Of a stretch of 55,528 nucleotides of DNA, positions 1 through 17,147 are shown piece by piece. The stretch comes from a virus: IMG/VR virus record IMGVR_UViG_3300032236_001351, positions 1-55,528 of that record, one strand, 5' to 3'. The notes beneath the pieces are model-generated. The model saw nothing but the letters and a program-made list of their open reading frames with translations. It was not told the origin of the DNA and did not search any database. The position numbers and the translations under genes are program-made. How positions within the stretch are numbered: position 1 is the stretch's first letter; every line of letters starts with the position of its first letter.

Positions 1-297
1 AAAATCAAAAAATTTAGTACTGGTCAATCGATCACCTTCAAACATTACATTTGATGACGTTTCGCCAACAAATTTGATTGCTTCTGGCATAACTGCCATT
101 GACAATCTATCAGTACCCGCAAAAACTTCTCCTTCTTCGTATTTCCCTATAATATGAAGATCCAATTCTTTAGAATATTTTGTGTTTACCAACTTTACAG
201 GTTCTTGATCTTCCCAATTATAAAAATCCATAAAATTACGAACAATAGTAGTTTTACCTACTCCCGGTTCCCCGATCACACAAATAACTTTTCTCAT
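1..297 (-). CDS. P-loop kinase, partial (DNA-base kinase candidate)
   Basis: Only the first 99 residues are in the window; the gene runs off the left edge. The protein opens MRKVICVIGEPGVGKTTIV, a textbook Walker A (GEPGVGKT) on the first beta strand, so it binds a nucleotide. The ATG at 297 overlaps the stop of the upstream gene by 4 nt (ATGA), so the two are translationally coupled. Being last in a TET/glycosyltransferase/amidoligase operon, it may be a DNA-base kinase like the 5-hydroxymethyl-dU DNA kinases described in phage hypermodification pathways. That is inference from context; the P-loop is what the sequence shows. A dNMP kinase is the main alternative. Confidence 0.6.
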   Translation of the reverse strand, partial: MRKVICVIGEPGVGKTTIVRNFMDFYNWEDQEPVKLVNTKYSKELDLHIIGKYEEGEVFAGTDRLSMAVMPEAIKFVGETSSNVMFEGDRLTSTKFFDF

Positions 298-1313
298 AAA
301 AATGCCTCAAATCCAACTTTCAATTCTTCTTCATCAGCAAATAGCCATTCCATTCTTGATATCTTTTTTGAGTTAATAAATTCTGGGTATTTACCAACGT
401 TTATCATCGTCTTACCACTCAAACGACTATCTAAACATTCATTTCTTGCTTGCCAAAGAACATTCCAATCAATACCATTCCAAGAATCTTTTTCTACTTG
501 AATAATTTCTTCAGATTGTCTGTCTAGATAATATCCAAGGTATCTTCCGTGTTTTTCTCTGAATATTTTCTTAAAAGAACACAAAACAGTTTCCATAGTG
601 AATTCATTTATATCATTAATTAGATCTGGAAATCTATCCTTCATCTCATTCAATATTTCTTGCGCAGAAGATTCTAAATTTTGATATTCAGAAGAGGTTA
701 GCTTTTCATTGTATTTTTCATCCATTCCTAGAGCAAGAAGTAATCCATTTCTATGACTTTTTGATCCAGAATAATCTTTTAACATCAATGATGTTGGACT
801 TATTGGAAGATTTACAGTAGAATATAATTGTTGTAAATAAAACCACACAGAATATCTACCAAATCTATGAAAATTATTCAAAGTAAAATTCCATATATTA
901 TCGAAACTAGATTTTTCATTATCTAATAATAAACCAAAAAAGAAATCTTTTTGTAGTCTATTTCCGATAATGTTTTTATAACATACAAACTTTTCTGGTA
1001 ATTTACCTTTTTCATACTTCATATCAACTTGATATCGAAGTCTTTTATAGTTATTATCATTCCACCAATTAAGTCTATCAAATGTAACCAACTCATAATC
1101 TGGAAATTCATTCATTAGAATCCAGGAAGTCGGTAATTGATAGGTATTACCATATAACCAAGCAAACCAATATTTTTGTTCTATATTGTGCTCATATCTT
1201 CTATTAATATAATTGGCTAACCAAACGGCAGGATCACAATCTTTAAAAGTCAATGACCAAGCATACCAACGAATGAATAATTCTCTTCTATTGTTCTTGT
1301 TGCTGTAATCCAT
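294..1313 (-). CDS. Putative DNA hypermodification protein (aGPT-PPlase/ADDT-like)
   Basis: A 339-residue, aromatic-rich protein without membrane segments. Residues about 30-75 (WLANYINRRY, KYWFAWLYGNTY, then a MNEFPD motif) and the middle block FHRFGRYSVWFYLQ with GSKSHRNGLLLALGM resemble the glycosylase-fold alpha-glutamyl/putrescinyl-thymine pyrophosphorylase and amino-acid:DNA transferase families predicted in phage thymine hypermodification. I recognise the pattern by eye only. In those pathways the protein replaces a pyrophosphate on hydroxymethyluracil with an amine-bearing group. It overlaps the phosphatase gene by 26 nt and the kinase by 4 nt. A kinase next to such a protein fits this pathway. 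The family assignment needs a profile search. Confidence 0.45.
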   Translation of the reverse strand: MDYSNKNNRRELFIRWYAWSLTFKDCDPAVWLANYINRRYEHNIEQKYWFAWLYGNTYQLPTSWILMNEFPDYELVTFDRLNWWNDNNYKRLRYQVDMKYEKGKLPEKFVCYKNIIGNRLQKDFFFGLLLDNEKSSFDNIWNFTLNNFHRFGRYSVWFYLQQLYSTVNLPISPTSLMLKDYSGSKSHRNGLLLALGMDEKYNEKLTSSEYQNLESSAQEILNEMKDRFPDLINDINEFTMETVLCSFKKIFREKHGRYLGYYLDRQSEEIIQVEKDSWNGIDWNVLWQARNECLDSRLSGKTMINVGKYPEFINSKKISRMEWLFADEEELKVGFEAFL

Positions 1314-1734
1314 CGATAAAGACCTTTAAAGATTCTTCCAACATGATAATAACCCTCTTATGCAGTTCATTACCTTTAGCAAAATTAGGATCGGGAATTT
1401 TAGGAATTCCAATTAAACTACTCAATCGAACAGATTTAGTCAAAACAATACTACCAAATTTTTCTTCCAATTTATCTCTATTAGAATCGTCCATGTAAAA
1501 AATTACATCTGCCCAATCTATCAATTCCTGTGATACTGGAGTAGATCTGATTCCTTCATTCGGATAACCCATTTCACTGAGAGCATCTCTCATTTTTTTT
1601 GCGGTTATTTCATTGCCTTTAGTGTCTTTTAAAGCAGCTGATTTAATCATCCAAGTAGGTTTGATTGTTTTAAGAATTATTTCCCCAGCAGCACTTCTGT
1701 TTATATTACCATGACAAACAAATAAAATATTCAT
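1288..1734 (-). CDS. Low-molecular-weight protein tyrosine phosphatase family
   Basis: A 148-residue protein of normal family length. The N-terminus MNILFVCHGNINRSAAGE carries the C(X)5R(S) phosphate-binding loop (Cys7, Arg13), and the C-terminal half has IPDPNF, containing the Asp that acts as general acid in this family. The enzyme should hydrolyse phosphate monoesters through a phosphocysteine intermediate. An AAAGGAT ribosome-binding site precedes the ATG at 1734, which overlaps the amidoligase by 4 nt. A phosphatase locked between an amidoligase and a kinase in a modification operon may act on a phosphorylated base or sugar intermediate rather than on protein; that role is inference. Arsenate reductase is a family alternative but lacks support. 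Confidence 0.85.
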   Translation of the reverse strand: MNILFVCHGNINRSAAGEIILKTIKPTWMIKSAALKDTKGNEITAKKMRDALSEMGYPNEGIRSTPVSQELIDWADVIFYMDDSNRDKLEEKFGSIVLTKSVRLSSLIGIPKIPDPNFAKGNELHKRVIIMLEESLKVFIDGLQQQEQ

Positions 1735-2702
1735 AATCCTTTAGCTTTACATTCAAGCATATATGGATATACCATTTTTGCAGTAACTTCTTCAACATTG
1801 TCTATATCAATTAATTCTCTTAATCCAGATAACCTTTTTTCTATTGTTCCTTTATTGTTAGTATCGAAATTAGTCCATTGATAAATCTGTTCACATTCAA
1901 AATCATACGGAGCAAATTTAGGAAAAGTATATTGGTATGAATCATTCATATAAAATTCATTCGGTGAAATTTCATCATCCATAAGAGCATAATATAAAAA
2001 ATTCTTACACCACGTAATACATGATTCCATTTCCTTCATATCCAGAGTTCCAGGAAAATGCCTAAATTCTATTGTATTTGTTTCTTCCCACATTTGCCTA
2101 AGATTTATCCCAGCCCTTGGACTAAAATACCACATTCTACCTTTATCAGTCAATGGAGCATGTTCTTCATAAAATTCTTGAGTGGTTTTCGCTTCCAACA
2201 TACAAAGAACTCTATTTAATGGGAGCTTAAATTGATGAGATTTCTTCCTTCTTTTCATTCTCTTCATTTCCCATTCATATACTTCTGGAATAAGAATATT
2301 TTTATTTGGCACAGGAATAGTTTCTGTTATATCAAAAGCCTGTTGTTGGTAAGTATGTATATAATTCAATAATTTCTTACAATATGACAGATTATCACTT
2401 AATCCAGGAACTCTGATATGTATATGTAGATTACTTCTATAATTAATGAGAGGTGAAGGTGTTAGGATTTTATTAATCTCAGATATATGATCTATTTGTT
2501 CTTCAATACTAAATGTTGGTTTAGTATTGATTTCTCCACCATATTTGTATAATTTACCATCAGGATCGTTTGCAATTCCTGTTGAACTTACACAAGTATT
2601 GTCTTTATTATTCCAAGATGCTCCTTCTGGTAATTTACAAAAACGATATGAGTTACCGTATTCCAATTCAACTCCATAAGACCATCCATCACATGAAATC
2701 AT
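1731..2702 (-). CDS. COOH-NH2 ligase / amidoligase (glutamine synthetase-fold-like)
   Basis: A 323-residue protein with the signature of the phage/bacterial amidoligase family: an early GVELEY (metal-binding Glu pair, about residues 10-15), KYGGEINTKPT, the HIHIRV strand near residue 95, and the late EFRHFPGTLD block. These enzymes use ATP to join a carboxylate to an amine or ammonia, as glutamate-cysteine ligases do. Immediately upstream lie a glycosyltransferase and a free-standing glutamine amidotransferase, so the natural reading is amide formation on a carboxyl-bearing base or sugar substituent. It overlaps the glycosyltransferase by 14 nt and the phosphatase by 4 nt. The substrate is unknown. 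Confidence 0.75.
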   Translation of the reverse strand: MISCDGWSYGVELEYGNSYRFCKLPEGASWNNKDNTCVSSTGIANDPDGKLYKYGGEINTKPTFSIEEQIDHISEINKILTPSPLINYRSNLHIHIRVPGLSDNLSYCKKLLNYIHTYQQQAFDITETIPVPNKNILIPEVYEWEMKRMKRRKKSHQFKLPLNRVLCMLEAKTTQEFYEEHAPLTDKGRMWYFSPRAGINLRQMWEETNTIEFRHFPGTLDMKEMESCITWCKNFLYYALMDDEISPNEFYMNDSYQYTFPKFAPYDFECEQIYQWTNFDTNNKGTIEKRLSGLRELIDIDNVEEVTAKMVYPYMLECKAKGL

Positions 2703-3471
2703 CTAATCCCCCACTAACCACATTTTCATCATACGCTTTTTTGAAAGCTATTCTCATCTTCAAATCAACTATCAAATTTTGGTTTTTAGCACCAGTTTCT
2801 TCTTTCAGTGTAATATATTTTGGGTGCAGTTTCTGAAGATTATACATAGCTTGTTTATTTTTAACCCCATCTCTATTCAATGAACATCCACCATCTGCAT
2901 TAGCTTGTCTTTCTTTTGCAATATATTTACCAGATATTCTTAACCGTTTTCCCGATTCTAAAATAGACAAAGGAACATGAAAATCTTCAAAATAATCAAG
3001 AGTATCAAATCTAATATTATTACTAATTAAATAGTCTCTATTTAAAAAATGAGTAGCATATGGTTTTCCATAATAATATTCTTCTAAATTTTTATGGCTC
3101 ATGAACGTACTGGATTGAGTACAATAAACATCTCCTTCTTTCAACCAAGATTCCATCAAATCAAGATATTCTCTTATATCTTTTAATTTAATTGTTTTAG
3201 TTAAGTTTTCTGAATCCCTTTCATAAAAAGTCAAATCATCATCCATCATACCAACCAGATTAGATTTACTATTTTCAACTATAAACTGTCTCGTTTTAGA
3301 AATGCTTCCCATACAATATTCAGGAACATCTATCCTATTTTCCCATTCATGTTCTTCATTTTTTGGGCAAACTAAAAACACTCTAGACTTCCATTCTTCA
3401 GGTATAGATTTTAATGTTATTTGGTTGTTTTCTCTACCCAACGTAGGAATATACACTAATAGATCATTCAT
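2689..3471 (-). CDS. TET-associated-type glycosyltransferase (GT-A fold)
   Basis: A 260-residue protein opening MNDLLVYIPTLGRENN, the nucleotide-binding beta strand of GT-A transferases, with the metal-binding DDD at about residues 77-79 (VGMMDDDLTF). Length, opening and a triple-Asp motif fit the glycosyltransferases found beside TET/JBP dioxygenases in phages, related to the base J glucosyltransferase. It would transfer a sugar from an NDP-sugar to the hydroxyl made by the neighbouring dioxygenase on 5-hydroxymethyl-C or 5-hydroxymethyl-U. The ATG overlaps the stop of the amidotransferase (AATGAATGA), indicating coupled translation. Specificity for sugar and base cannot be read from the sequence. 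Confidence 0.75.
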   Translation of the reverse strand: MNDLLVYIPTLGRENNQITLKSIPEEWKSRVFLVCPKNEEHEWENRIDVPEYCMGSISKTRQFIVENSKSNLVGMMDDDLTFYERDSENLTKTIKLKDIREYLDLMESWLKEGDVYCTQSSTFMSHKNLEEYYYGKPYATHFLNRDYLISNNIRFDTLDYFEDFHVPLSILESGKRLRISGKYIAKERQANADGGCSLNRDGVKNKQAMYNLQKLHPKYITLKEETGAKNQNLIVDLKMRIAFKKAYDENVVSGGLDDFM

Positions 3472-4147
3472 TTTGTAAATCCAATTCTTTAGTATTTGCT
3501 TCTTGGTCAGTTAAACAAAAATCATAATATGTTTTATATGTAAAGGGTTCGATTTCATTAATATCAATCAACCCAGAACGTTTAAGTATATCAGATGAAG
3601 AAGAAACTAGTAATCCATTTTCGATAAATGAATAATACAAAGGTCTTTTTCCATTTCTATAAAATCTTAAAGTTTTATTTGTTTTTAATTCACATACTGA
3701 CAATGAAGAATCTTCCCAAACCTCGAAAATATCTTTTTCGTCACTTATTGTATGTAATAATAATTCAGTATCATTCTTACTGTTACATTCATATCCATAT
3801 AAAGACTTCCAATTATCATATAATTCTTGTGTAATAACACCATTATGAACTACTGATAATTTGCCATCAGATATTGGCTGATTGTATAATAAATCTGAAG
3901 TTGAATATCTACAATGACCAATCAAATATAAATTACCATCTTCATTGATGCAATTATGTAATTCATCTAAAAATTTGAATTTATCAGCTGGTACTGACTC
4001 TTTTATAGTATGAATGGTATTTCCTTTAATATATGAAAGTCCTGTTGAATGCATTCCTCTTATTTTAGATTCAATAAAAATAATCTTTATCCTATCTAAA
4101 TCATCAAAAGATGGACTTCTAAGAAAAGCTCCTATTACAGCACACAT
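3464..4147 (-). CDS. Class II glutamine amidotransferase, stand-alone
   Basis: A 227-residue Ntn-hydrolase-type glutaminase. After Met removal, Cys2 (MCAVIGAF) is the nucleophile. Downstream lie RGMHSTGLS, GHCRYSTSD, VHNGVI and NDTELL, which match the conserved RG...G, R-Y-S, HNG and (S)DTE glutamine-binding positions of GlmS, PurF and asparagine synthetase N-domains. There is no attached synthase or isomerase domain, so released ammonia must be used by a partner, most simply the amidoligase two genes downstream. The start overlaps the TET stop by 1 nt. A role in DNA modification is inferred from the operon; glutaminase chemistry is established for the family. Confidence 0.88.
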   Translation of the reverse strand: MCAVIGAFLRSPSFDDLDRIKIIFIESKIRGMHSTGLSYIKGNTIHTIKESVPADKFKFLDELHNCINEDGNLYLIGHCRYSTSDLLYNQPISDGKLSVVHNGVITQELYDNWKSLYGYECNSKNDTELLLHTISDEKDIFEVWEDSSLSVCELKTNKTLRFYRNGKRPLYYSFIENGLLVSSSSDILKRSGLIDINEIEPFTYKTYYDFCLTDQEANTKELDLQNE

Positions 4148-5496
4148 TAAAAGAATTCATCCATAGAAAAAGTTTTTTGTACACTTTCTGGGTGGTACTT
4201 TAATAGCATATCATAACCAAGATTCTTTTCTACATATTCGTACCATTCTTCAGATTTATACCATCCTGGAGATACTCCATTCCACATAGGCTTCCATAAT
4301 GGATGATCTTTATTCAGTCGTCTTTCTTCAATAAAATTATGCCGACAATCTTCATACACCTTTTCTCCAAGATTTAACATATTTTCTCTAAAATAACACA
4401 CAACAGAATATCTTTCAGCACCTTCATCAAGAATAATTGGTGTATTACCATGAATACCACCATGATTATTAATCAACAACAAATCAGAAGGTCTGATATT
4501 AATAGCTACTCTATATTCTGGCAATACCAAAAGTCCACCAGAATAATTCTTTCCATCATTTAATACTGTTAAATTGGAAAAACCTTTATGAAGATCGCCA
4601 CTATCACGATGAGCAGCAGTTTGAAAGCTTCTATTTACTGTAATTGTAGTAAAAACGGTATCAGGAACATGAAATTCTGGATCGATCTTTTCAATACAAG
4701 ATTTCTGAAAAGCCCATCTTTTGGGGAGTAACTCAGAAAAAGCTTTAGAAAGTTTTTGTAAAAGAGGAAAAGCTAATTTAAATTTATCAAAATTTTGTTC
4801 AGTATATGCTGTAGCTCTTCCGTAAGGAATTCTATCATACCTCCCATACCAACCGGCAACACCAGACACAGAAGAAGCTGCATAGTCAGTTTTTGACATG
4901 TATTCCTTTTCAACTCTTTCTGCTTCTTTTTTCTGTTCTTCTGGTGGAAGTTTCTTGGTTTCATTTACCCATCGATCAAATTCAAATTCATCTTTTTTCA
5001 TTTTAGAAGAAATCCAAGCATACCCTCTGAAATCAGATAGCATATCAATATTTTCATATTTCTTGTAAATCTGGTCTACAGGATCTTCTCCAAACAGATT
5101 TGAATTAGGAGATGAAAATTGTTTCAGAATTTCTCGTTGGAGTGGAGTTATCCATTCTCTATCAGGATCTGTTTCGCCTTTAGGTCCTGCGGCCAATCCA
5201 CGATTAAAAGAAATTTTAGCTGCTCCCTTCAACCCTTCAAGAGCATTCTTTTGTTCATCATCAGAAAAGAAATTTTTGCGGAGAATAAAAATAACAGATT
5301 CTTCATCAATACCTTTAGGACAATTCGAACAATCTTTAGATACACAAGAGCCGATTTCTTCTATACCACATGTAGGTACTCCGAAAAAATTACAATCTTC
5401 ATCAATGACATAATCATAATGACTTTCATTCAAAAATTGACCTAGAAGATGTTCACAATCTAATTTTTCATTTGCTACAATAGTTTTAACCATCAT
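4147..5496 (-). CDS. TET/JBP-family 2-oxoglutarate, Fe(II) dioxygenase
   Basis: A 449-residue protein. The double-stranded beta-helix core spans about residues 280-372: TTITVNRSFQTAAHRD (metal ligands His296 and Asp298), GGLLVLPEY, PSDLLLINNHGGIHGN (third ligand His349) and ERYSVVCYF (Arg362, the expected 2-oxoglutarate partner). This is the TET/JBP layout, so the enzyme probably hydroxylates the 5-methyl of 5mC or T in duplex DNA. About 270 N-terminal residues precede the core and include a cysteine cluster (Cys43, 51, 56, 59) that could bind metal. It is the first gene of the minus-strand operon. A GGGA precedes two adjacent ATGs (5496 and 5493); either may be used. The substrate base is undetermined. 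Confidence 0.88.
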   Translation of the reverse strand: MMVKTIVANEKLDCEHLLGQFLNESHYDYVIDEDCNFFGVPTCGIEEIGSCVSKDCSNCPKGIDEESVIFILRKNFFSDDEQKNALEGLKGAAKISFNRGLAAGPKGETDPDREWITPLQREILKQFSSPNSNLFGEDPVDQIYKKYENIDMLSDFRGYAWISSKMKKDEFEFDRWVNETKKLPPEEQKKEAERVEKEYMSKTDYAASSVSGVAGWYGRYDRIPYGRATAYTEQNFDKFKLAFPLLQKLSKAFSELLPKRWAFQKSCIEKIDPEFHVPDTVFTTITVNRSFQTAAHRDSGDLHKGFSNLTVLNDGKNYSGGLLVLPEYRVAINIRPSDLLLINNHGGIHGNTPIILDEGAERYSVVCYFRENMLNLGEKVYEDCRHNFIEERRLNKDHPLWKPMWNGVSPGWYKSEEWYEYVEKNLGYDMLLKYHPESVQKTFSMDEFF

Positions 5497-5504
5497 CGTC
5501 CCAT

Positions 5505-5512
5505 TATAAATA
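5505..5512 (+). promoter_or_regulatory. T4-type late promoter
   Basis: TATAAATA, the exact T4 late -10 element read by a gp55-type sigma. It lies 22 nt before the ATG of the tail-tube-like gene, as expected for a virion gene. Confidence 0.8.
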
Positions 5513-6604: not shown

Positions 6605-7603
6605 ATGTCCAGCAAAAATATTTATACCATATATAGATTTACTAATAATAAAAACAATAAAGTTTATATAGGTAAAACTTCAAATTTCAGAGAAAGAATT
6701 AATAGTCATAAATTTAATTATAAAAATGGAGATACCGTATTTTATAAAGCATTAAGAAAACATGGTTGGGGGTCTTTTTGTATAGATATAATATATCAAA
6801 CGAAAAACCACGAACATTGTTTAGAAATGGAAACATATTTTATATATGAATATAATAGTTATATATCATTTGAAAATTCCAACGGGTATAATATGACTTT
6901 GGGTGGAGAGGGTTCATTGGGAGCAAATACAAAAACATACAACTTTTATGATATCTATGGCAATTATTATACAATCACCAATTTATATCAATTTTGCACA
7001 GAAAAGAATATAAGCAGTAAAGTTATGTATGATTTAGCTAACGGAAAACGACTAAAATATGATATATATATTTCCGCTTTAAAAGAAAAAAGGAAATTTA
7101 AAACATTTAAATTATACGATACGATAAAACAAGAGATAATAGAAATAACTGATCTTTCAGAATTTTGCGAAAAAAATGGTTATAATAAAGTAAATATGAT
7201 GAGATTAGTCACCAATGGGGTTAATCATTACGATATTTTTAAAAATATCAATAAAATTGATTATATTCCTATGGAGGAAAGAAAGTATTCATTTATTTTT
7301 AAAGGCCAAATAATAACTATAATAAATTTAAAGGATTATTGTGAACAAAATAATTTATCATATACTAAAATGAACGATTTATACAGAGGAAAGTGTAAAT
7401 CTCATGGAGATTATATTAATAATTATCCAGATTATATCCCCCCAAACAAAAGAATATTAAAATTGATTTCTCCATCCGGAGAAATATTAGAGATTAATAA
7501 TATTAAAAAATTTTGTATAGAAAATGGATTATCAGATTTATGTATCCAAGCCCTAAAGTCTAAAAAACAAAAACAACATAAAGGATACAGGTTATATGAG
7601 TGA
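6605..7603 (+). CDS. GIY-YIG homing endonuclease with NUMOD-type repeats
   Basis: A 332-residue protein. Residues about 4-90 are a GIY-YIG nuclease: IYTIYRFTN, NKVYIGKTSNFRERI (second Y and catalytic Arg) and a later Glu in LEMETYF. The rest contains four degenerate modules of about 60 residues that each have an (I)TNLYQFC / ITDLSEFC / IINLKDYC / INNIKKFC core, resembling the NUMOD DNA-binding helix. AGGAAAT supplies a ribosome site. The last 8 nt overlap uvsW. Such free-standing genes cleave intron- or endonuclease-free alleles and spread by recombination; here it splits uvsY from uvsW. Its composition is even more AT-rich than its neighbours. Confidence 0.85.
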   Translation: MSSKNIYTIYRFTNNKNNKVYIGKTSNFRERINSHKFNYKNGDTVFYKALRKHGWGSFCIDIIYQTKNHEHCLEMETYFIYEYNSYISFENSNGYNMTLGGEGSLGANTKTYNFYDIYGNYYTITNLYQFCTEKNISSKVMYDLANGKRLKYDIYISALKEKRKFKTFKLYDTIKQEIIEITDLSEFCEKNGYNKVNMMRLVTNGVNHYDIFKNINKIDYIPMEERKYSFIFKGQIITIINLKDYCEQNNLSYTKMNDLYRGKCKSHGDYINNYPDYIPPNKRILKLISPSGEILEINNIKKFCIENGLSDLCIQALKSKKQKQHKGYRLYE

Positions 7604-9850: not shown

Positions 9851-9907
9851 GTATCATCAAGGGGGTACATACTTAGTGTCTCAAAGAGTCAAGTGAAAGT
9901 CAAGGAC
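9851..9907 (+). repeat. 57-nt intergenic element, copy 1
   Basis: Matches 44295-44351 at 53 of 57 ungapped positions, with a 31-nt identical core (9862-9892) beginning GGGGTACATACTTAG. It precedes the gene 55 promoter; copy 2 precedes the primase gene. Confidence 0.9.
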
Positions 9908-9938
9908 TTTTTAAAAAAATATTTATTTTAAATAATAC

Positions 9939-9966
9939 TTTACTTCTGAACCTTTAGTGCTATACT
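9939..9966 (+). promoter_or_regulatory. Promoter for gene 55 operon
   Basis: TTTACT (9939-9944), 16-nt spacer, TATACT (9961-9966) with an extended TG at 9958-9959. A sigma-70-type match located 37 nt before gene 55 and downstream of the 57-nt element. Confidence 0.55.
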
Positions 9967-10002
9967 TAATATTAAGGGATAGAATAATAACATGAGGATC
10001 TA

Positions 10003-10542
10003 ATGAAACCCGCTAATAATTATATCGACAATGTTGAATTTACAAGACAGCTAATAGAACATAAGAATAGAATACTTGAAGCCGAACGTCTGGGTCTTCC
10101 TAAACCAAGAGCCAACAACTATATAGGCGATTGCTTCCTTAAGATAGCTAACAATTTAGCTAAACGTCCTAATTTCTTTTCATACTCATATAAAGATGAA
10201 ATGATATCCGATGCGATTGAAAATTGCATTTTATATTACGAAAACTTTGATCCTGATAAATCCAATAAACCTTTTGCGTATTTCACCAAAATTTGTTGGT
10301 ATGCTTTTGTTCGTCGTATAGCCAAGGAGAAGAAACAACAGTACGTAAAATATAAAGCCAGTGAAAGTTTTGGTGTACTTGGCGAGGAGGAGATGGAAGA
10401 ACTTGATGATGCAACTAGAGCGCAGATTCAGATTTATGATAATATGTATGAATTTATTTCTACATACGAAGAAAAAAATCTAACAAAGAAAGAGCCTGTT
10501 AAGGAAGTTGCTAAAGGGGTTGAGAAATTTTTCGATGAGTAA
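10003..10542 (+). CDS. 55: Late sigma factor gp55
   Basis: A 179-residue protein close to T4 gp55 (185). The N-terminal NNYIGDCFLKIANNLAKRPNF and the central block YKDEMISDAIENC, NFDPDKSNKPFAYFTKICWYAFVRRIAKEKKQ match sigma region 2 as found in gp55: promoter melting and core binding. gp55 directs host RNA polymerase to TATAAATA, which occurs exactly five times upstream of genes in this window. The C-terminus is acidic and may contact the clamp. GAGG lies ahead of the ATG; the end overlaps gene 47 by 8 nt. Confidence 0.92.
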   Translation: MKPANNYIDNVEFTRQLIEHKNRILEAERLGLPKPRANNYIGDCFLKIANNLAKRPNFFSYSYKDEMISDAIENCILYYENFDPDKSNKPFAYFTKICWYAFVRRIAKEKKQQYVKYKASESFGVLGEEEMEELDDATRAQIQIYDNMYEFISTYEEKNLTKKEPVKEVAKGVEKFFDE

Positions 10543-11605
10543 GATTGTTATCCTTGGTGATACCCACTTTTCATATAAATCTGGATCCAGATTATTTTCA
10601 GATTATTTTGAAAAATTTTATACTAATGTTTTCTTTCCTTATCTCAAAGAGAATGACATCACGACCGTTATCCAAACCGGGGATTTAAATGACGAAAGAC
10701 GTGCTGTAAATAATGTTGGAATTTTCGAAGCCAGAAGATATTTCTTCGATAAGCTTTCTGAAGAAAATATTACAATGTATGTTCCTTTAGGAAATCATGA
10801 TATTGCATATAAAGATACCCTGAAGGTCAATTCTCCTTCATTGTTGTATAAGGATTATACAAATATTCATATTATTGATTCTCCAAGAACCATCGAAATT
10901 TTCGAAAAAAATGTTTGTTTCATTCCTTGGATCTGTAGAGAAAACGAAGAATCTGCTTTAAATGAACTTAAAAATAGTAGATCAAATATTTGTGTTGGTC
11001 ATTTTGAAATTTCTGGTTTTGCAATGTATAAGGGGATTATGAGTCATGGAGGTATGGATTCTTCCTTATTTGATCGTTTTGAGTATGTCTTCAGTGGACA
11101 TTATCATCACAGGTCAACCAAGCGTAATATTCATTACGTTGGCACTCCATATGAAATGACCTGGTCTGATTATGGTGATCCAAAAGGTTTTTATGTTTTT
11201 GATTTGAAAACACAGGAAATCGAATTCATTAAAAATCCATACAAAATGTATCATAAGATTTTCTATGATGATACAGATGAGCAAGGTGTAAATAATCAAA
11301 TTGAAGAATTTACTGAACTTGGGTTAAATTCGACTTATGTTAAATTGGTAATACAAAATAAAAATAATGTTTATCTTTATGATAAGTTCTTTGAGAGTTT
11401 GGAAAAACAAGAACCTTTCGATGTTAATGTTATTGAAGATATGCAGGATGTTTTTACTGAAGAATTGATTGAAATTGATGAAAGTGAAGATACTTTAACT
11501 ACTATTTACAAATTCGTTGATATAGCAAATAATGATGAATTTGATAATAATAGAGTGAAAAAGATTCTTGGTGAATTATATTCTGAAGCAATGGCGATTA
11601 AGTAA
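10535..11605 (+). CDS. 47: gp47 recombination nuclease subunit (Mre11/SbcD-like)
   Basis: The start is ATG 10535 (MSKIVILGDTHF), not an upstream in-frame TTG, because the first metal motif GDTH must be near the N-terminus. The 356-residue protein has the five calcineurin-type motifs: GDTH, QTGDLNDERR, LGNHD, GHFEISG and FSGHYHHRS. With gp46 it resects double-strand ends to make 3' tails for UvsX-dependent recombination and degrades host DNA. It overlaps gene 55 by 8 nt and gene 46 by 1 nt. Confidence 0.94.
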   Translation: MSKIVILGDTHFSYKSGSRLFSDYFEKFYTNVFFPYLKENDITTVIQTGDLNDERRAVNNVGIFEARRYFFDKLSEENITMYVPLGNHDIAYKDTLKVNSPSLLYKDYTNIHIIDSPRTIEIFEKNVCFIPWICRENEESALNELKNSRSNICVGHFEISGFAMYKGIMSHGGMDSSLFDRFEYVFSGHYHHRSTKRNIHYVGTPYEMTWSDYGDPKGFYVFDLKTQEIEFIKNPYKMYHKIFYDDTDEQGVNNQIEEFTELGLNSTYVKLVIQNKNNVYLYDKFFESLEKQEPFDVNVIEDMQDVFTEELIEIDESEDTLTTIYKFVDIANNDEFDNNRVKKILGELYSEAMAIK

Positions 11606-13326: not shown

Positions 13327-13931
13327 GTGATGTGATTACAATTGATACCGGATTGAATACAAATCAATCTATTAGTTATAAATACGAACCTTATGAATTG
13401 GTTTATGAAGGAGAACCAATTCTAAAGGAATACATTGATAAATTTGATTTTGAAAATAATGATATTGATATCAAAGAGTTATGTGGACGTATGAAAAAAA
13501 CACTTGAAGTTGAAAGAGGATTTGGATTAGCTGCTCCTCAATGTGGACTTCGGGTTCGTATGTTTGTCATGGGTGCTGAAGGAGATTACAGTGCAATGTT
13601 TAATCCCACCATAACTTGGTCTTCGGAAAACACCACCCATATGGAAGAAGGGTGTTTATCATTCAGTTATCTTACAGTTTCAATTACACGACCAGAAAGG
13701 ATTAAGGTTAAATTTCAAGATGAAACTGGAATTGAACATGAAATTGAATTTTCTGGTCTTACTGCTAGAATTATCCAACATGAAATTGATCATCTTAATG
13801 GTATTACTTTTGATACTATAGCCAAACCTTTAGCGTTAAAAGCCGGAAAAACAAGAAGAGAAAAGAAACTGAGTCAATACGCAAAAAGAATGAAAAATCT
13901 GAGGAAATACGTCAATGCTAAAACCAGCTGA
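13323..13931 (+). CDS. def: Peptide deformylase
   Basis: A 202-residue enzyme with all three PDF motifs: GFGLAAPQ (motif 1, about 67-74), EEGCLSF (motif 2, metal ligand Cys111) and QHEIDHLNG (motif 3, HExxH about 153-157). It removes the N-formyl group from new polypeptides using a bound metal. The C-terminal tail is basic (KTRREKKLSQYAKRMKN). Phage copies may maintain deformylation of abundant phage proteins when host synthesis stops; that role is inference. It overlaps gene 46 by 4 nt and the ligase gene by 17 nt. Confidence 0.93.
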   Translation: MSDVITIDTGLNTNQSISYKYEPYELVYEGEPILKEYIDKFDFENNDIDIKELCGRMKKTLEVERGFGLAAPQCGLRVRMFVMGAEGDYSAMFNPTITWSSENTTHMEEGCLSFSYLTVSITRPERIKVKFQDETGIEHEIEFSGLTARIIQHEIDHLNGITFDTIAKPLALKAGKTRREKKLSQYAKRMKNLRKYVNAKTS

Positions 13932-15237
13932 TATTATTGTTGAATTGGAATCTGATAATAGTAGACTTTTTAAAGAGTCTATTATTATTCGTGAGATGGA
14001 ATCTAATAATGAAGAATTCTTTAAGGGTGTTAATTTAGCCTTCAATAAAAGAATTACTTTTGGAGTTAATGAAAAAACTGTTCCTAACGATTGTAATAAT
14101 TCTGATAGTGATAATATTTCCAATGAACAATTTTACACATTAGTACAGGATTTAATTGATAGAAAGATTACTGGTAATGCAGCAAAGGATCTTTTGATTC
14201 ATATTGCTGTTAATACTTCTAAACATACATGGAATAATTGGTTCAGACGAATCTTATTAAAGGATTTAAAGTGTGGAGTCGATGTAAAGACAATTAATAA
14301 TTGTGCCAAGAAAAATTCAAAAACGCAATTTTCTGTTCCTGTGTTTTCATGTCAACTTGCTCACAATTCAACTGATCATCAAACTAAGATGGTAGGAGAG
14401 AAAATCATAGAATTAAAGTTGGACGGAAGCAGAGTAATTTCTATACTTTATCCAGATGGTAGAGTTAGTCAATTTACTAGAAATGGAAAAGAATTATTAA
14501 ATTTTACTAAAATTAGAGAACAATTAAGTAAAGCTACTCTTGATTTACCATTAATTCCTATGGTATTTGATGGAGAAGTGATGAGTAATTCTTTTCAGGA
14601 CTTGATGAAACAACTTCATCGTAAGGATAATGTTCAAACTGATGATGCTGTATTATATCTTTTTGATATGGTCACTTTAGATGATTTTGAATCCGGTATT
14701 TCCTATACTAAACAAACTGTAAGAAGTAAAGAATTATCCGATTGGTATAATAGTAATAAAGAAGTATTAAGTAATATTCAAGTATTAGATCAAGAAGTCG
14801 TTGACTTATCTACTGATGAAGGGCAAAATAGATATAAGGAAATTAATAAAGCAGCTATTGATGGTGGTTATGAAGGATTATTGATTAAAGATCCTGATGC
14901 GCCGTATGAAGTAAAACGTTCAGTAGCTTGGTTAAAATCTAAACCGTTTATTTCGGTAGATCTTAAAATTATAGATATTCAAGAAGGAACAGATAAGTAC
15001 GAAGGAATGTTAGGCGCTTTTATCTGTGCAGGCATTGAAGATGGTAAAGAAATTAATGTTAATGTAGGATCTGGTTTTACTGATAAACAAAGAATTGAAT
15101 ATTGGAATACCGATGTGGTGGGAAGAATTGCTGAAGTTAAGGCTGATGCAATTACTCAAAATCAAAACGGAACCTATTCTTTACGCTTTCCTGTTTTCAT
15201 GCGATTACGTGGATTTGAGGCTGGAGAAAAAATTTAA
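13915..15237 (+). CDS. 30: ATP-dependent DNA ligase (T4 gp30 type)
   Basis: A 440-residue ligase. The nucleotidyl-lysine motif I is IELKLDGSR (Lys168); motif III is VFDGEV; motif IV is GYEGLLIKDP; motif V is WLKSKPF, with an OB-fold domain after it. About 160 residues precede the catalytic core, as in T4 gp30 (487 aa). It seals nicks between Okazaki fragments and in recombination products. The start lies within the end of the deformylase gene, so the two are probably coupled. Confidence 0.94.
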   Translation: MLKPADIIVELESDNSRLFKESIIIREMESNNEEFFKGVNLAFNKRITFGVNEKTVPNDCNNSDSDNISNEQFYTLVQDLIDRKITGNAAKDLLIHIAVNTSKHTWNNWFRRILLKDLKCGVDVKTINNCAKKNSKTQFSVPVFSCQLAHNSTDHQTKMVGEKIIELKLDGSRVISILYPDGRVSQFTRNGKELLNFTKIREQLSKATLDLPLIPMVFDGEVMSNSFQDLMKQLHRKDNVQTDDAVLYLFDMVTLDDFESGISYTKQTVRSKELSDWYNSNKEVLSNIQVLDQEVVDLSTDEGQNRYKEINKAAIDGGYEGLLIKDPDAPYEVKRSVAWLKSKPFISVDLKIIDIQEGTDKYEGMLGAFICAGIEDGKEINVNVGSGFTDKQRIEYWNTDVVGRIAEVKADAITQNQNGTYSLRFPVFMRLRGFEAGEKI

Positions 15238-15252
15238 TAAATGGAATAAAAC

Positions 15253-16332
15253 ATGAATTGGACTAAACAAGAATGTATTAATGCATTAAAGGATTTATCT
15301 GAATTATATCCAGATGTCATTATTACTAGAGATTTTTTTAGACAAAATTCAGATTGTCCTGAATATTGGTGGACTCGATATTTTGGAACATTTTCTGAAT
15401 TTAAACAACATTGTGGATTAACAAAAACACGAGAACAGAATAAATTACTAAATCAAGTAGCTAAACATGCTTCTAAAGATTCATTAAGAAAGCTTAATGA
15501 AGAAAAGTCTGGTTATTCTGAAAAGTATCTTCGTCCTGATAGTAAACGATTTCAAACAATTGTTACTATAACTGATACTCATGATATTAGCCTTGATCCT
15601 TTCACGAGAAGAGTATATTTAGATACTTTAAAAAGGATTCAACCTGAAGTTATTGTATTCGGTGGTGATAATTTCGATCTTCCAGAATTCAGTAAATATT
15701 TTAATGATCCAAGAAATTATAATCTAATCGAACGTATTACTTGTGTTCATGAATTTCTAAGAGATATTAGAGAAATTGTTCCTGATGCGGAATTTAATTG
15801 GGTAGCTGGAAATCATGAATGCAGGCTAGTAAAATATCTTTCCGAAGCAAGTCCAAACATCATGGTACTATTATCGGATCTTCATGGCTTTACTGTATCC
15901 AAACTACTTGGACTGGATGAATTTGAAATTAATTACATTTCTAGAGAAGATTTAACTGTATTTAGTGAAACCGACCTTAAAAAGGAAATTGGTAAGAATT
16001 ATCTTGTTAAATTTGATTCCATTCTTTTCCACCATTATCCAGATGGAAAAAACTATGGTCTTCCTGGAGTTAATGGCCACCATCATGCTCATAGATGTGA
16101 AACTCTTCATAATCTGAATTTCGGTGCTTACGAATGGCATCAATTAGGTTCTGGTCATATTAGAAGAGCAAACTATTGTGAAGCACAAAGATGGTCAACT
16201 GGATTCATGATCAGTCATCATGATATATATAATAGAACTACTGTTTTTGAATACGTAGATACTACCAAGGATTTTACTATTGTTGGAGGTAAGTGGTATT
16301 CAAGAACTGAAGATGAAATTTATAAATTATAA
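15253..16332 (+). CDS. Calcineurin-like phosphoesterase with N-terminal repeat domain
   Basis: A 359-residue protein in two parts. Residues 1-60 (WTKQECINALKDL ... ITRDFFRQN ... YFGTFSEFKQHCGL) resemble the small repeat found next to HNH homing nucleases, a likely DNA-binding fold. From about residue 98 the metallophosphoesterase motifs follow: TITDTHD, GGDNFD, VAGNHE and NGHHHAHR. It may be a DNA or nucleotide phosphodiesterase. It is separated from the ligase by 15 nt and has its own ATG. The substrate is unknown. Confidence 0.7.
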   Translation: MNWTKQECINALKDLSELYPDVIITRDFFRQNSDCPEYWWTRYFGTFSEFKQHCGLTKTREQNKLLNQVAKHASKDSLRKLNEEKSGYSEKYLRPDSKRFQTIVTITDTHDISLDPFTRRVYLDTLKRIQPEVIVFGGDNFDLPEFSKYFNDPRNYNLIERITCVHEFLRDIREIVPDAEFNWVAGNHECRLVKYLSEASPNIMVLLSDLHGFTVSKLLGLDEFEINYISREDLTVFSETDLKKEIGKNYLVKFDSILFHHYPDGKNYGLPGVNGHHHAHRCETLHNLNFGAYEWHQLGSGHIRRANYCEAQRWSTGFMISHHDIYNRTTVFEYVDTTKDFTIVGGKWYSRTEDEIYKL

Positions 16333-16349
16333 AAAGAGGTGAATATATA

Positions 16350-17147
16350 ATGCAAATTCAAATTACAAGAGAAGAGCTGGCTAAGAAGAAACTTTTTATC
16401 GGAATGCCAACTTATGGTGGGATGATGACAACCCTAACTGCTAAGTCATTAATAGATTTAAATTCATTAATGGCACAGTATGGTGTTGAGGTGAAGTTCA
16501 GTTTTTTGATGAATGAAAGTTTGATTCAAAGAGCCAGAAACTATATCACTGACGAATTCCTAAATCGCTCAGATTGTACTCATATGATGTTTATTGATGC
16601 GGATATTGTGTTTAATCCGCAAGATATTATTTCTATGCTTGCTCTTGATAAGGAAATTATCGGTGGACCATATCCGAAGAAAAGCCTTGATTGGAAGCAG
16701 CTTAATAAGGCATTAAAGAAGAACGCAGAACTTCCTGTTTCTGAGTATGAAAAGCTGACTGGATCTATTGTATTTAATCCAGTTGGAGGTACAAGTAAGT
16801 TTAGTATTACTGAACCTCTTGAAATTATGGACCTAGGAACTGGATTCATGATGATTAAGCGTGAAGTATTCGAAAAATATCAAGAAGCTTACCCTGAAAA
16901 GATGTATAAACCGGATCATGTTGGTCAGGCTCATTTTGATGGTACTAGGGAAATTTGTGCATTCTTTGATTGTGTGATTGATCCAGATTCCAAGCGTTAT
17001 TTATCTGAGGACTACTTCTTTACCCAACAATGTAGGAAGATTGGTATTAAGACTTGGCTTGCTCCATGGATTAATCTTGGACATATGGGATCTTATGTAT
17101 TCCAAGGCAGTCTTCCTGCTGTGGCTCAATACATAGGTGAATTGTAA
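16350..17147 (+). CDS. Glycosyltransferase-like protein (GT-A)
   Basis: A 265-residue protein starting with a beta strand and a nucleotide-site loop (FIGMPTYGGMMT), then SLIQRARNYITDEFL and a DxD metal motif in MMFIDADIVF, followed by GGPYPKKSLDW and an acceptor-side LSEDYFF. Similar glycosyltransferase-like proteins are common in T4-like phages; donor and acceptor are unknown. AAAGAGGTG gives a good ribosome site. A terminator directly follows, ending this transcription unit before the clamp genes. It is distinct from the sugar island at 29-38 kb. Confidence 0.65.
   Translation: MQIQITREELAKKKLFIGMPTYGGMMTTLTAKSLIDLNSLMAQYGVEVKFSFLMNESLIQRARNYITDEFLNRSDCTHMMFIDADIVFNPQDIISMLALDKEIIGGPYPKKSLDWKQLNKALKKNAELPVSEYEKLTGSIVFNPVGGTSKFSITEPLEIMDLGTGFMMIKREVFEKYQEAYPEKMYKPDHVGQAHFDGTREICAFFDCVIDPDSKRYLSEDYFFTQQCRKIGIKTWLAPWINLGHMGSYVFQGSLPAVAQYIGEL

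Follow-up and report, generated by a model that had tools for sequence, protein, structure and literature searches.

The window analyzed here, a 55.5-kb IMG/VR record of a T4-like bacteriophage, starts at base 1 inside a kinase gene and carries at this end seven open reading frames (ORFs) on the minus strand, which very probably encode a DNA hypermodification system of some kind. Upstream of the last of them lies a promoter motif. The features are as follows.

1 to 297, minus strand: P-loop base/nucleotide kinase, 99 aa, incomplete at the contig edge, with the Walker A motif GEPGVGKT
294 to 1313, minus strand: ADDT (amino acid:DNA transferase, aGPT-PPlase-type; PF18724, phrog_3271)
1288 to 1734, minus strand: LMWP (low-molecular-weight phosphatase; LMWPc)
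1731 to 2702, minus strand: Amidoligase_2, a glutamine-synthetase/GCS2-like carboxylate-amine ligase (PF12224)
2689 to 3471, minus strand: TAGT (TET-associated glycosyltransferase; PF20691, phrog_842)
3464 to 4147, minus strand: GATase (stand-alone class-II, or N-terminal nucleophile (Ntn), glutamine amidotransferase; GATase_6)
4147 to 5496, minus strand: TET/JBP 2-oxoglutarate (2OG)-Fe(II) dioxygenase of the long phage type, 449 aa (Tet_JBP, phrog_24024)
5505 to 5512, plus strand: T4-type late promoter motif TATAAATA, which would serve the divergent tail-tube gene and faces away from TET in the short gap

Successive frames overlap by 4, 26, 4, 14, 8 and 1 nt, counted from the kinase to TET, and an ORF check bore out both the coordinates and the 1-26 nt overlaps from which an overlapping seven-gene operon had originally been predicted. 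The block had also been described as the only one running opposite to the rest of the window, and this holds: the remaining long ORFs are all on the plus strand, and the other minus-strand ORFs of at least 100 aa overlap larger plus-strand ORFs. Scans of IMG/VR yielded more than 100 loci (individual loci are cited below by L numbers), and the order TET-GATase-(glycosyltransferase)-amidoligase-LMWP-ADDT-kinase recurs in dozens of contigs. Measured against L006, the nearest relative, all seven genes are under purifying selection, with a ratio of nonsynonymous to synonymous substitution rates (dN/dS) of 0.05-0.22 for each. Because the identical order recurs so widely and each ratio is low, the cluster is not a product of chance; it is real, conserved and, judging by selection, functional.

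Profile searches with Pfam and PHROGs named all seven proteins much as the motif reading of the original prediction had done, placing them in Tet_JBP, GATase_6, TAGT, Amidoligase_2, LMWPc, ADDT and Ploopntkinase3, and residue conservation was followed in alignments that took in 13-33 relatives per protein. The TET (Tet_JBP, 6.9e-21; phrog_24024, 3e-154) contains the HxD...H...R 2OG-Fe(II) motif, with H296, D298, H349 and R362 conserved among relatives, and its structure model, with a predicted local distance difference test score (pLDDT) of 84, has CcTET, NgTET1, CMD1 and TET2 as its top PDB matches. The GATase (GATase_6, 1.1e-11) has the N-terminal cysteine and the Ntn motifs, and the nucleophile C2 together with R80, N102-G103 and D126 is conserved across 24 sequences, consistent with a role as the source of NH3. 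TAGT (3.3e-8, 34.2 bits against a cut-off of 27.5; phrog_842, 8.5e-31) has a DDD motif that the alignment places near residues 77-79. The amidoligase (PF12224, 1.9e-6, 28.4 bits against a cut-off of 22) has E12, E14, E57, H93, H95, E212 and R214 invariant in 37 sequences; its model (pLDDT 96) returned glutamine synthetase, gamma-glutamylcysteine/glutamate-cysteine ligase (GCS) or YbdK-type folds as the best 50 Foldseek matches, all of them weak (best E 0.012). The LMWP (LMWPc, 3.1e-14) has CX5RS at 7-14 and DP at 115-116, with C7, R13 and D115 kept in relatives, and its top PDB matches are LMW phosphatases, the arginine phosphatase YwlE among them. The ADDT (PF18724, 2.4e-19, 70.4 bits against a cut-off of 26.2; phrog_3271, 1.8e-53) belongs to a family whose members carry the name amino acid:DNA transferases in Pfam, and shares 29% identity across 291 aa with homologues from Salmonella phages, including Det7. 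Finally, the kinase matches Ploopntkinase3 at 3.8e-6 for the incomplete window copy and at 4.2e-10 for the full-length 179-aa copy of L006, and its Walker A residues G14-K15 are kept in relatives.

The company kept by the amidoligase is informative. When amidoligases were grouped at 70% identity, LMWP, ADDT and kinase were each found with 24 of the 28 resulting clusters, while the front end differed: 11 clusters have a TET, 10 have a protein resembling thymidylate synthase (TS-like), none has both and seven have neither. A check of whole contigs in 22 records gave the same picture (TET in 10, TS-like in six, both in none). For example, GATase-ADDT-amidoligase-LMWP is joined in L113 by a TS-like gene, without TET, all by Pfam, and phage Simon has ADDT-DAO-amidoligase-LMWP-5hmdU-kinase-like-TS-like, likewise without TET (5hmdU is 5-hydroxymethyldeoxyuridine). 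The TS-like proteins of these clusters score 53-80 bits to PF00303, as against 373 bits for the TS of Caulobacter phage Cr30, and so appear to have diverged, which would fit hydroxymethylases. PF00303 is absent from the window, which is a fragment, and Cr30 is the single one of 26 long-TET records with a match. Fisher p-values for this exclusivity are overstated because the front end changed only about four times on the amidoligase tree; the contrast is real, resting on few events. It suggests an amidoligase-LMWP-ADDT-kinase core with interchangeable front ends.

How might such a core act? In related phages a 5hmdU DNA kinase is known to phosphorylate 5hmdU residues in DNA, which then undergo further modification (PMC6449724; PMC7653180); its substrate is the base within DNA (PMC7653180). 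By analogy, the window TET would hydroxylate T in DNA at its 5-methyl group to give 5-hydroxymethyl-U, the JBP reaction, in place of a TS-like dUMP hydroxymethylase. The P-loop kinase would, from its family, phosphorylate or pyrophosphorylate the hydroxymethyl group in DNA, and the ADDT would, again from its family, exchange the phosphate for an amino acid whose carboxylate stays on the base. Attachment through the amine would keep that carboxylate free, and a glutamine amidotransferase with a carboxylate-amine ligase then makes a natural amidating pair: the GATase may release NH3 from glutamine, and the amidoligase may convert the carboxylate to an amide with ATP, in a step in which the LMWP would take part. 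TAGT, or a GT-B enzyme in the same slot, could add a sugar to the side chain or to hydroxymethyl groups left unreacted. Both the amino acid attached and the final product are predictions, and the likely role is the masking of phage DNA from host nucleases.

The identified parts, the conserved operon and the alternation with a TS-like front end together support well the multi-step hypermodification system that was originally predicted. The order proposed at that time, in which the base was oxidized, then glycosylated and then made to bear an amide or amine, is not the best fit, as the presence of a kinase and an ADDT suggests rather that the hydroxymethyl base is phosphorylated and then receives an amino acid. 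Nor does glycosylation stand as a fixed second step: the glycosyltransferase occupies an optional, swappable slot after the GATase, which is filled by TAGT in the window, L006, L089, L090 and L105 and elsewhere holds a GT-B enzyme (PF00534 or related to it) or nothing, and amidation probably follows ADDT. We give about an even chance to the full thymine-plus-amide pathway acting post-replicatively on a pyrimidine in phage DNA. Somewhat more tentatively, we propose that a T-acting phage TET, the kinase-ADDT pair and a glutamine-synthetase-fold amidoligase fed by a separate GATase yield an amidated, possibly glycosylated amino-acid-thymine, which would be a new DNA base made with a dedicated T-oxidizing TET.

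The target base is presumably T rather than C, thymine being favored because no C5-cytosine methyltransferase was detected and because of the exchange of TET with a TS-like front end. The methyltransferase search covered 32 long-TET records in total, mostly fragments: PF00145 was absent from the 26 already mentioned, which include the complete genomes of Cr30, DLP6, C48C1 and S-CBWM1, and likewise from six further long-TET contigs, including ones of 247, 201 and 167 kb. That the search works is clear from Melnitz-3, a positive control with a different TET, in which an HhaI-like C5-methyltransferase was detected adjoining TET.

Nevertheless, a cytosine route deserves consideration, in which TET oxidizes 5-methylcytosine (5mC) that the host or an unrecognized methyltransferase has made, and kinase, ADDT and amidoligase build on 5-hydroxymethylcytosine. 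Asp301 of the window TET, which by alignment would occupy the position of NgTET1 D234 and TET2 N1387, resembles the NgTET1 residue, and phage TETs have been described as oxidizing 5-methyl- to 5-hydroxymethyldeoxycytidine (PMC11404850). Set against this are the lack of any PF00145 match in the 32 records, four complete genomes included, and the presence of the amidoligase module behind TS-like and 5hmdU-kinase-like proteins as well, and we regard the cytosine route as distinctly unlikely. Several observations do, however, count against the thymine pathway. In L114 and L116 the amidoligase-LMWP module is accompanied by ADDT, a short TET and a C5-methyltransferase, from which it follows that the module may also work on cytosine, and host-made 5mC could be a source of substrate. 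The Melnitz TET beside its C5-methyltransferase also has Asp at the Asp301 position. Neither front end is seen in several amidoligase contigs, Cr30 carries TET, ADDT and TS together (its TS, at 373 bits, resembles an ordinary one), and the few front-end changes noted above belong here too. The kinase lies nearest Ploopntkinase3 rather than the 5hmdU DNA kinase model, no PF18748 match being listed, and the window copy is incomplete. The pocket residue was considered as a test of T against 5mC and rejected: among kinase-linked TETs the residue may be either Asp or Asn, and Asp is also seen next to a C5-methyltransferase. Because the window and Melnitz TETs share Asp the pocket does not distinguish the two bases.

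The chemistry might also run the other way: the base would carry an amine, to which the amidoligase would attach a free metabolite (glutamate, for example) through its carboxylate, and the GATase would serve a different step. Amidoligase homologues adjoin FAD-dependent DAO oxidases, which could trim an amino-acid adduct to an aminomethyl base, and most TS-type loci are without GATase; on the other hand, eight of the 11 TET-type clusters have GATase and none has DAO, and we consider reverse joining rather unlikely. The exchange of GATase and DAO is a single change on the amidoligase tree, weak evidence in either direction, and their mutual exclusion was for this reason dropped as support for the amine-source model. 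It is a good deal less probable still that GATase, amidoligase and LMWP are simply neighbors of a TET-ADDT-kinase DNA system and have as their own target a peptide, a protein or a component of the envelope. In the LUZ24-like phage UFV-P2, amidoligase and GATase do accompany ATP-grasp genes, and the part inspected has neither TET nor ADDT among its annotations, but the LMWP and ADDT each accompany most amidoligase clusters under TET and TS-like front ends alike, and the reading frames of the window operon overlap.

Phage cytosine systems composed of C5-methyltransferase, TET and glycosyltransferase were reportedly described by Burke in 2021. The window has the TET and TAGT families in common with these, and differs in its kinase-ADDT-amidoligase branch and in that no C5-methyltransferase was found. 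The M6/ViI-type thymidine hypermodification pathways (Lee 2018, 2021; PMC6449724), like the window, use kinase and ADDT on a hydroxymethyl pyrimidine in DNA, with the Det7-type homologues being those compared above; the window has TET first, with no TS-like dUMP hydroxymethylase found, and amidoligase, GATase, LMWP and glycosyltransferase in addition. In 2025 ParB, a TET/J-binding-like protein, aGPT-PPlase2 and a 5hmU kinase of Rhodococcus phage Tonitrus were annotated as a possible thymidine hypermodification system (PMC11955845), and the trio of TET, aGPT-PPlase and kinase is therefore not new; unlike the window, that cluster has a ParB-like protein, and amidoligase, GATase, LMWP and glycosyltransferase are not named there. 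The CmoA-CmoX-CmoY 5-carboxymethylcytosine system resembles the proposed pathway in placing an amide on a base-linked carboxylate, and ammonia from glutamine has been suggested as the nitrogen source for amidation in one cluster of CmoY homologues that carry a glutaminase domain (PMC12783734). There, however, the carboxylate comes from carboxy-S-adenosylmethionine (Cx-SAM) and the ligase is asparagine-synthetase-like, as opposed to a glutamine-synthetase-fold amidoligase with a separate GATase; the window gave no PF00145 match for a C5-methyltransferase-like CmoX, its ligase is of PF12224 and not of the CmoY type, and we do not assign it to that system. Arthrobacter phage Ottawa (OQ938580) likewise has a carboxylate-amine ligase, GATase, TET and kinase near each other, but its TET is divergent (24% core identity), ParB-like genes are present and no ADDT was found.

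In the open literature we found no paper tying amidoligase and LMWP to such a pathway, in a search that was incomplete, and parts of the operon may have been predicted earlier. The amidation module, which would be an addition to thymidine hypermodification as described in the papers searched, and the interchangeable front ends look new, and the DNA base that would result is probably undescribed as far as we could find. The operon joins two branches of phage DNA chemistry usually kept apart, in situ oxidation by TET and hydroxymethylase-kinase-ADDT hypermodification, and means that cultured phages could be used for a direct test of whether phage TETs act on T, one of them being Cr30, which has TET, ADDT and kinase and gave no amidoligase match over the part inspected. 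It could also yield new enzymes for DNA labeling.

The operon had further been suggested to be regulated separately, which is plausible given the opposite-facing late motif before TET and a sigma-70-like promoter preceding TET in L007, although no clear sigma-70 promoter for TET was seen in the window. The TATAAATA motif is no commoner than chance over the window, yet it stands in the corresponding gap of several relatives.

Other arrangements of these genes were also encountered. A simpler variant, TET-x-ADDT-kinase, occurs in L007-L013, and a GATase-GNAT-ADDT-TET-kinase variant in L017, L019 and L022-L030, the GNAT acetyltransferase lying between GATase and ADDT (for example L030:8287-8940). 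A myo-inositol-1-phosphate synthase-type gene is found downstream of ADDT in Cr30 (L002, 13293-14474) and its relatives L008, L009, L012 and L013, between ADDT and kinase where both are seen, and an inositol-bearing base is conceivable in Cr30-type loci. In C48C1 (L004) a UDP-galactopyranose mutase gene two genes past TET (10345-11355) suggests a galactofuranose donor. Vibrio phage 2.275.O (L082) has an amidoligase relative (9866-10978) and an Ntn-type amidotransferase (13512-14126) within a 7-deazaguanine gene cluster. A scan of genome contigs gave two loci only, and no relatives turned up when the amidoligase of phage Simon was used as seed; in the Simon cluster a 456-aa ORF overlapping the DAO-like ORF (L081:8614-9984) has no Pfam or NCBIfam match. 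A metagenome-assembled contig titled Candidatus Parcubacteria (L132), possibly a phage contig, has amidoligase, LMWP, kinase and a short TET together. In L006 an AmoC/PmoC gene (15822-16589; PF04896, 1.8e-119) follows the kinase by 80 nt, hinting at an ammonia- or methane-oxidizing host. In the window itself the operon is flanked on the plus strand by genes of T4 type (tail tube, UvsY, UvsW-like helicase, late sigma factor, DNA polymerase, DnaB-like helicase and ribonucleotide reductase), with a GIY-YIG homing endonuclease gene (6605-7603) separating uvsY from the gene for the UvsW-like helicase.

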